Source: Dokdonella immobilis
GTDB taxonomy: Bacteria; Pseudomonadota; Gammaproteobacteria; Xanthomonadales; Rhodanobacteraceae
Direction: 5' to 3'
NCBI RefSeq assembly: GCF_900115085.1
Contig: NZ_FOVF01000032.1
Location: 1 to 52,040 of the forward strand
DNA: 52,040 nucleotides
A program made the translations under genes and the position numbers. The notes under the pieces are model-generated. The model was not told the origin of the DNA, did no database searches, and saw only the letters and a program-made list of their open reading frames with translations. The first letter of the stretch is position 1. Each line of letters begins with the position of its first letter. Below, one piece after another: positions 41,801 through 43,401 of the stretch.

Positions 41801-42089
41801 GGTTGGGGTCTCCAGTTCGGTTGAAGAAAGCGCCTGGACCGCCACTGACGGAATACACGCAGGTTGTGCAATCCGTTCTAGACCCGCCAACGTGAACCTC
41901 TCCTGATATCGGCATGACGTAACGTGACCGACAGGTGCGCCATGGCCGCCGATACCCACGGTTCGCTGCCTTGGCAAACGGGCGTCTGAAACTTCACATC
42001 CGTTCTTCGTGAGCCAGTCGAAGGATGAGCGGACAAGCCCGAGAACGCCCAATCGAGCAGGCCGTCGATCGCGCCCCTCCCAAGCCTCC
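41801..42089. other. Non-coding leader between SH3 gene and the structured element
   Basis: No gene is credible here. It must hold the SH3 gene's promoter on the minus strand; I see no clear hexamers. CCCCTCC at 42073-42079 can pair with GGAGGGG at the start of the structured element. Confidence 0.5.
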
Positions 42090-42381
42090 TAAAGGAGGGG
42101 CTGATCAAGTAGCAAAGTCGTCATGGCGTTCAGAAGGTCTTCCACATGTGCCGCGTGGCGAAGTGAAGGCTGGTTGCCTTGGCGAGGCGCGCGGTGCCTG
42201 GGGGGAGCCTTCTGGACGCCACCTTTTCAGCATCCAATCAATCAGTCAGGCGACGCCTGCCTGCGCGCAGATCCTTGTTGCGTCGACTTGAAAGACGGCC
42301 AGTCTGTCTGCGTCGACGCGTCGCGATCTGCACACAGGCAGGCGTCGTGACGACTTTGCTACTTGATCAGACCCTCCTTAA
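42090..42381. mobile_element. MITE-like structured element: 31-bp inverted repeats with two inner hairpin arms
   Basis: The outer arms are 42093-42123 and 42348-42378. The left one starts AGGAGGGGCTGATCAAGTAG, and 30 of 31 positions are complementary. Directly inside, arm A pairs 42124-42137 with 42208-42221 (TGGCGTTCAGAAGG against TGGCGTCCAGAAGG, 13/14). Arm B pairs 42251-42273 with 42325-42347 (CGACGCCTGCCTG core, 21/23), with a further 8-bp stem GCGTCGAC / GTCGACGC inside. A 29-base linker joins the arms. TAA flanks both ends (42090-42092 and 42379-42381), a possible 3-bp target duplication. No protein is encoded. Non-autonomous transposon is the simplest reading; a structured RNA is the alternative. 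Confidence 0.7.
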
Positions 42382-42471
42382 CGCATCCTGACGCGAGTAA
42401 ACGCCATTGGGCCGCCGTTCCGAATGGGTCGGCTACGGTCCTCGTGTTCGCTGTCACGATGGAGGGGGATG

Positions 42472-43401
42472 ATGAGCACGATACGACAGACCACGATTTT
42501 CCTTGCCCTCGGCGTGCTCTGCGCCGGAAGCGCGGTAGCCGCCAACACCGTCACCGCACCGCAGGGCGGCGTCGCGCGTTGGGCCGGTCTCGCCGCCAGC
42601 GAGTGCGGCATCTATGGCAAGCGCTACCCGGCGGTCGACGCGGTCTGCTACTACCCGGTCGATATCCGCACCAAGGTCGGCACGCACGAAATCGCGCTCT
42701 GGGACCAGGACGGCAAGCGCCACCTCGGCACCTTGCGCGTCGAGACGGCCGACTTTCCGGCCGTCGACATGCCGCTGCCCGAGTCGCTGGACCGCTACGT
42801 GCATCCCTCCGCGGAGGATACCCAGCGCGCCGTCGCCGAACGCGCCGACATCACGCCGATCCTCGGTGGTCGACTCGATGAATCCGCACACTTCTCGCTA
42901 CCGCTCGGCGCCCCGGCCGCAACGCTTCCGAAAAGCGCGGACGATTTCGGCAGCGTGCGCACGTTTACCGAGGACCGCACGAGCCTGCATACCGGGCGCG
43001 ATTACCCGGTCGGCGCCGGCAATGCCGTCAAGGCGGTCGCCGACGGTAAGGTTGTGCTCGCTGCCGATCACTTTTTCACCGGCAACGCGGTCTATGTCGA
43101 TCACGGTGCCGGACTGGTCAGCATGAACTTCCATCTCTCCGAGCTCGACGTGAAGTCTGGCGATCAGGTCAAGCGCGGCCAGACCCTCGGCAAGGTCGGC
43201 GGTACCGGCCGGGCGACCGGTCCGCATCTTCATATCGGCCTGCGCTGGCTCGGCAAGCGTGTCGATCCGGCCCTGCTGTTCGCCAATCCGACATCGCTGC
43301 CCTCGGTCAGCGACACCCACGCCGAGGCCGAACAGAAGATCGACCGGGCCGAGCAGCGCGACCCGGACGAAGGCGAAATTCCAGTCGACGACGAAGGCTG
43401 A
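42472..43401 (+). CDS. M23 (LytM) metallopeptidase, secreted
   Basis: The 309-residue protein has a signal peptide (MSTIRQTTIFLALGVLCAGS, ending AVAA). A middle region with two Cys (SECGIYGK, VCYYPV) follows, then a C-terminal M23 domain. Its zinc ligands are H173 and D177 in LHTGRDYPVG, and the GPHLHIG motif (H252, H254). Family members cut peptidoglycan cross-links or activate amidases; with all ligands present it is probably active. GGAGG with six bases of spacing selects the second of two consecutive ATGs (42472). The last 30 residues are acidic. It lies 90 bases downstream of the structured inverted-repeat element. Confidence 0.92.
   Translation: MSTIRQTTIFLALGVLCAGSAVAANTVTAPQGGVARWAGLAASECGIYGKRYPAVDAVCYYPVDIRTKVGTHEIALWDQDGKRHLGTLRVETADFPAVDMPLPESLDRYVHPSAEDTQRAVAERADITPILGGRLDESAHFSLPLGAPAATLPKSADDFGSVRTFTEDRTSLHTGRDYPVGAGNAVKAVADGKVVLAADHFFTGNAVYVDHGAGLVSMNFHLSELDVKSGDQVKRGQTLGKVGGTGRATGPHLHIGLRWLGKRVDPALLFANPTSLPSVSDTHAEAEQKIDRAEQRDPDEGEIPVDDEG

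Follow-up and report, generated by a model that had tools for sequence, protein, structure and literature searches.

A multi-copy, IS5-related element with a conserved two-armed fold in Dokdonella and related genera

Structure of the element at 42094-42377

The window, a stretch of 52,040 nucleotides of Dokdonella immobilis DNA that was analysed as a whole, carries a 284 bp element at 42094-42377 (given on the + strand, on which arm A, described below, keeps G.U over A.C). It lies between two target-like 4-bp flanks, TAAA on the left (42090-42093) and TTAA on the right (42378-42381), which differ by one letter. Its bounds, GGAGGGG (from 42094) and CCCTCC (to 42377), were set by comparing other copies. 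The gene to its right (42424-43401) is one that we take, by eye, to resemble an M23-type peptidase. Two open reading frames of at least 80 aa, 42025-42291 (88 aa) and 42363-42881, merely cross the ends of the element, which is short and non-coding and has terminal inverted repeats (TIRs), as do miniature inverted-repeat transposable elements (MITEs); 42093-42123 and 42348-42378 are complementary at 30 of 31 positions.

The core is laid out as a three-way junction, in which a closing stem, P1, formed by the left TIR (42094-42123, 5´ side) and the right TIR (42348-42377, 3´ side), encloses arm A (42124-42221), an unpaired linker of 29 bases that joins the two arms (42222-42250) and arm B (42251-42347). 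Both arms are long imperfect hairpins, with 13 of 14 terminal pairs formed in arm A and 21 of 23 in arm B; these values and that for the TIRs had been put forward in a sequence-only reading of this DNA and were recovered exactly at the same coordinates. No other inverted repeat in the 52 kb window reaches 30 of 31 pairs within 400 bp, barring this one's neighbouring register at 42092/42379. The predicted DNA fold of the element has an energy of -104.6 kcal/mol, compared to -54.06 (sd 4.16) for 100 shuffled sequences (z = -12.15). Pairing in arm A runs past its first description to 36 opposing positions, among them 25 Watson-Crick pairs, 7 G.T and 1 A.C, and is capped by a short top stem.

An apex motif of arm A (42153-42193, 41 nt) is supported by pattern matches in other genomes. 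The loop of arm A, UGGUU (42171-42175), is complementary, with G.U, to the loop of arm B, GGCCA (42297-42301). A loop-loop contact between the arms was an attractive candidate; it gained no support from a shuffle test, in which the two loops pair at 208 of 230 pairs against a shuffled mean of 207.6, with no covariation beyond composition. No family in Rfam 15 exceeded its gathering cut-off, and the four matches returned at E values up to 10 were all far under theirs.

Copies, ends and insertion sites

A single copy in all genomes, which the sequence-only reading had listed among the observations that would argue against mobility, was not what was seen; the 41 nt arm A apex has 43 matches in its own genome (25 forward and 18 reverse). 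BLAST with the whole element gave at least 99 aligned pieces in that genome, with 40 of 116 first-look candidates scored, and the family, like those of MITEs, consists of many dispersed copies. Eight of 40 sampled genomes had an element match, six from the same genus (own genome counted) and two from other genera. The apex pattern matched 61 of 398 genomes of the order, with one genome matched by the reversed-pattern control, and two of 369 genomes of the class (own genome and G022), where the control too gave matches in two genomes. The apex matches in G255 and G022 were discarded as chance; L321 and L322 show no such fold.

A covariance model of the element (R1) matched 106 of the 233 family genomes, in 19 of 26 genera, at E ≤ 0.001, with up to eight candidates scored per genome. 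Since true elements reach up to 190 bits with R1 on the wrong strand, a safe cut-off was placed at a best E ≤ 1e-48 (~200 bits), by which 61 of the 233 genomes and 13 of the 26 genera carry the element. In the order sample, 99 of 398 genomes matched R1 at E ≤ 0.001; the 30 of these in other families (best 6.1e-36) were set aside because of the same wrong-strand scores. The sole other-family match inspected (G436, L233) belongs to a second class of elements, described below. Searches of plasmids with the window, L211 and L210 elements, and of phages with the L211 element, gave no match.

Most of the aligned Dokdonella copies belong to one of two sequence types, each with its own pair of ends (GATCAAGTAGCAAAG and GAACAAGTGGCGCAA); a few, such as L077 and L110, mix the two end types, and truncated copies also are present. 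L062:1999-2041 is a lone left end fused to other sequence, without arms. For comparison of full copies, 45 Dokdonella sequences were aligned with MAFFT (alignment A1), 31 from the own genome, window included, and 14 from G006, which appears to be the genome of a sister species. L073, which shares the flanks of L072 and lies where a contig ends, is left out of A1, as are the second of the two L113 copies, those that are truncated, odd or have a single arm (L062-L068, L090, L095, L101-L104 and L106), and any at contig ends or outside the stretches retrieved.

G006 also carries a ~1.2 kb insertion sequence (IS), L123, with GGAGGGTCTGAACAAGT at both ends, adjoining CTAG. It encodes a 333-aa transposase that matches the IS5-family model NF033581 at 349.4 bits (cut-off 140), as well as PF01609 and PF05598. 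All 17 of the L123 end letters are present at both ends of the element copy L106 and at the right end of L084, while the window copy, compared by eye, agrees at 15 of 17 in its left TIR and 16 of 17 in its right TIR. The sequence-only reading had raised an IS5-like non-autonomous element family, which the many copies and the 17/17 ends of some of them support. It had also proposed to look for an IS with the same 31-bp ends; L123 shares the outer 17 letters of some copies, and beyond the end letters no sharing with this IS was seen. The element has the outer 17 bp of its ends and its CTAG/TTAA-like flanks in common with IS5-family ISs (NF033581) but, unlike them, carries no transposase gene; at 284 bp it is too short for a 333-aa gene, and we consider it a relative of the IS5 family in trans rather than a member.

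Ends in common with an autonomous element, as for MITEs, were found for two further ISs. The IS in L127/L129 (G007 and G002) has GGCAACGCTGAATAAGT as its left end, identical at 17 of 17 letters to the element L211 of G107, and GGATATGCTGAACAAGT as its other end, so that the left end alone is shared; GGCAACGCTGANNAAGT ends, which resemble this left end, are found on the element copies of G007, G002 and G004. The IS in L323 (G107) has GGATGCTCTGA at both ends, adjoining TTAG and CTAG, and many copies in other genera carry the same ends. Most of the elements read in other genera end in GGCAACGCTGA-, GGATGCTCTGA- or GGTGCTCTGA-like letters. A TIR pattern scan of G002 gave 69 matches, mostly GGAAGGTCTGAACAAGT among the matches listed, and two of the pattern pairs are just ~110 bp apart, perhaps representing a related family of shorter elements.

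Relatives of the L123 transposase were found in three of 16 other element-bearing genomes searched, including a near-full relative in G107 (61% identical, the match containing one reported TAG) with matching ends; no L123-like transposase was found in the remaining 13. In the own genome just a partial PF05598 match of 32 positions, at a contig edge, was seen. By these searches a partner was found for a minority of the hosts.

The flanks resemble 4-bp CTAG/TTAA-type sites, and the TNA target considered in the sequence-only reading gained no support. On target site duplication, another trait of MITEs, the flank statistics are moderate. Among 46 family elements, 16 have the same 4 bp on both sides, compared with a mean of 5.5 and a maximum of 12 in 1000 shuffles; among 45 Dokdonella copies 17 do, compared with a mean of 12.2 and a maximum of 17. 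Identical flanks that are not palindromic occur (CTGG at L236, TTAG at L243 and CTTG at L074), and hybrid pairs are numerous. In the hybrids a left CCAG accompanies a right CTAG, or a left CTAG a right CTGG, with the inner AG and CT constant; the element may take two letters along when it moves, or correction may be making its ends palindromic.

Empty sites, a further property of MITEs proposed as a check in the sequence-only reading, were found at two places in G006, where the element is missing between matching flanks. At one, GTGTAG-TCGC in G006 corresponds to GTAG-element-CTAG-TCGC in the own genome. To its left 295 bp match at 88%, and to its right 229 bp match at 94%, starting 72 bases out, after a diverged stretch of ~70 bases (67 in G006); this is the one clean case from the flanks of 41 context loci compared with all loci gathered. 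At the other, homology extends for 5.9 kb (89%) up to CTAG and for 1.8 kb (88%) beyond, with a gap between the flanks of 27 bases in G006 versus 522 in the own genome, the latter made up of the element and ~240 further bases that are partly another repeat. L280:11300-11468 is another repeat directly beside an element copy and matches several places in G006. The G006 locus orthologous to that in the window is without the element, but the DNA between the genes there has diverged too far to serve as a clean empty site.

Conservation of the fold and its strand

We examined changes on both sides of predicted pairs in three alignments. In A1, 21 of 101 predicted pairs were changed on both sides. In A2, which combines elements of Dokdonella with those of two further genera (19 in all), 54 of 115 pairs were changed on both sides versus 31.2 upon shuffling, and 92.4% of cells were paired versus 33-43% when slid, for a structure derived from A2 itself. 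In A4, which holds 46 elements from 13 genera (matches with E < 1e-50, one per locus, without L202, L203, L217, L220, L232 and L233), 82 of 109 pairs were changed on both sides versus 56.4 upon shuffling, and 94.7% of cells were paired versus 32-41% when slid, A4 having been fitted to R1, which favours the structure. These compensatory changes support the three-way junction described from the single copy in the window. Mean pairwise identity in A4 was 0.52 for the outer stem, 0.64 for the inner stem, 0.70-0.87 for the arms and 0.49 for the linker.

On a quick tree of the core columns (44 rows, 18 of 43 inner branches weakly supported), the three end types need four changes, the least possible being two, and starred branches force three changes each for the GGATGC and GGCRAC end labels. 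The four-change figure omits L248 and L249, which have other ends; adding both under their own label gives six. Nine aligned Dokdonella copies are without arm B and one is without arm A, so that copies can exist in the absence of either arm. Of one orthologous pair of copies, that in the own genome is full and that in G006 lost arm B together with some of the closing stem. The second class of elements keeps the arm A apex and has another arm B. Of 14 arm A apex matches examined, 12 (L309-L320) were picked for their CCTGGCTGG-like tips and are second-class elements, and two were suspected to be chance. Most of L309-L320 have a short, CCCTTCGGG-like linker, the ends are mostly near GGGCCTGTT, and arm B differs in its top and carries a GTGTACGGACGTACAC- or GTGTATCGACATACAC-like hairpin. 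L233, from another family of the order, and L213:2371-2632 also are of this class. In L011, L012 and L018 (G002 and G004), arm B has an extra insert of 50-100 nt that contains GGATGCAGGAGGTA.

Mismatched cells were compared as G.T versus A.C in a count that opposes positions by geometry alone; an earlier count leaned towards G.U because its structure had been chosen with RNA energies. In the family set, the G.T:A.C cells were 29:19 in the closing stem, 177:10 in lower arm A, 18:3 in the arm A top, 7:51 in lower arm B, where one column has A.C as its commonest state, 44:30 in upper arm B and 0:2 in the arm B tip. In the Dokdonella set, they were 67:20 in the closing stem, 280:14 in lower arm A, 5:3 in the arm A top, 13:71 in lower arm B, 47:6 in middle arm B and 91:6 in upper arm B. 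G.T exceeded A.C in 41 of the 46 family sequences, which are related to one another. The proposal that a single strand is selected throughout was weakened by this symmetric count.

The predicted + strand RNA was more stable than the - strand RNA for 44 of 45 Dokdonella copies (means -199.2 versus -175.2 kcal/mol). Beyond Dokdonella the strands were closer in predicted stability, with the - strand equal or more stable for some elements (L014, L015 and L249). Based on crude codon-score gene calls, none of 45 placements falls inside a called gene, the upstream gene has the same sense as the element in 20 of 43 cases, giving no strand preference, and the downstream gene has the opposite sense, reading into the element, in 29 of 43. 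These orientations make a + strand transcript possible, yet the context does not indicate one.

A mobile element with a kept core

The window element belongs to a mobile family of a known kind, a MITE with IS5-type transposases as its probable movers, whose two-armed core is unusual, conserved and modular. We consider it likely that it is a non-autonomous element moved in trans by IS5-family transposases and that the core is kept since one strand works folded. IS5-family transposases would move the element into CTAG/TTAA-like 4-bp sites, and the two-armed core would persist because one strand functions when folded, most probably as a transcript, a role that arm A fits best, with G.U kept and A.C not. 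In support stand the copy number, the ends in common with IS5-family ISs, the target-like flanks, the empty sites in G006, the paired changes over 13 genera, the end-type changes on the core tree and the greater predicted stability of the + strand RNA in Dokdonella. Weighing against this reading are lower arm B and the near-even closing stem of the family set, the - strand stabilities in other genera, the gene orientations, the one-armed copies, the flank identities of the Dokdonella set, the loop-loop result, the few hosts with an L123-like transposase and the fitting of A4 to R1. Our leading guess is that the folded core is a protein-binding or transcript-stabilising module. A structured RNA, one of the readings offered from sequence alone, is a possible reading, and the fold may act as RNA, may act as single-stranded DNA or may merely be repaired.

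The last of these corresponds to an ordinary MITE with a functionless core, in which template switching at replication (quasi-palindrome correction) would mend mismatches in the arms and mimic covariation. This is a serious contender that we nevertheless judge to be somewhat improbable. Many copies outside Dokdonella, across many genera, are nearly perfect palindromes, 10 aligned copies have lost an entire arm at its base or close to it, and the G006 orthologue lost arm B in situ along with a portion of the closing stem. The two flank letters adjoining the TIRs are mostly AG/CT or AA/TT even where the outer letters differ, the closing stem has no clear G.T preference, and lower arm B is reversed, all of which favours repair. 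Repair fits less well with arm A, where the 177:10 excess of G.T cells corresponds to 31:7 column states and U.G is held at the same columns in 28, 27 and 19 of the 46 A4 sequences, and with apex sequences that are better conserved than the ends.

The fold could instead work in single-stranded DNA, such as that of the lagging strand, where it would promote excision or replication of the element or be recognised by a DNA-binding protein. G.T is a tolerated mismatch in DNA too, the DNA fold of the window element stands far from its shuffled controls (z -12.15), and hairpins in single-stranded DNA would lead to just such removal of entire arms from the base or close to it. IS5-family transposases, however, are DDE enzymes that work on double-stranded ends, and copies without arm B or arm A occur; we regard this explanation as unlikely. 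Far less probable still is a REP/BIME-like element handled by a TnpA_REP-type (HUH) enzyme, as the sequence-only reading had also envisaged. REP/BIME are likewise palindromic repeats between genes (PMC8266576), and the present element is palindromic, multi-copy and, by the crude calls, found inside none of the called genes; but it differs from them in size, ends and transposase type, being 284 bp long with CTAG/TTAA-like flanks and long TIRs that, in some copies, have the same outer 17 letters as a DDE IS5-family element.

Returning to the element as moved in trans with a core that works folded, we tentatively suggest, while holding it to be rather less than probable, that it represents a mobile structured RNA of a new class. 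This two-armed module, found throughout the family, would have a conserved, working arm A and an exchangeable arm B, would spread with ends borrowed from any IS5-type transposon that is active, and would so outlive each transposase partner. BOX elements of Streptococcus pneumoniae, which are modular in build, belong to other organisms and resemble the present element by description. They are likewise structured and repeated (PMC10969869). The same source gives QMITE2 of Coxiella burnetii as an example of a bacterial MITE, likewise short, non-coding, bounded by TIRs and multi-copy, with a transcript predicted to fold (PMC10969869). The passages of that source covered here describe nothing like the two-armed junction, the compensatory changes over 13 genera, the switching ends and the exchangeable arms of the present element (PMC10969869). 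No description of the present element family was found in the literature covered, which comprised the starts of abstracts and part of one review, with subscription papers and preprints outside its scope.

The covariance model R1 can be used to annotate otherwise unexplained repeats in this bacterial family. MITEs are commonly regarded as the decayed remains of other elements. In this family the ends change, and it is the body, maintained pair by pair from genus to genus, that shows the higher conservation, which makes it directly testable whether selection on a folded form can hold a parasitic element together.
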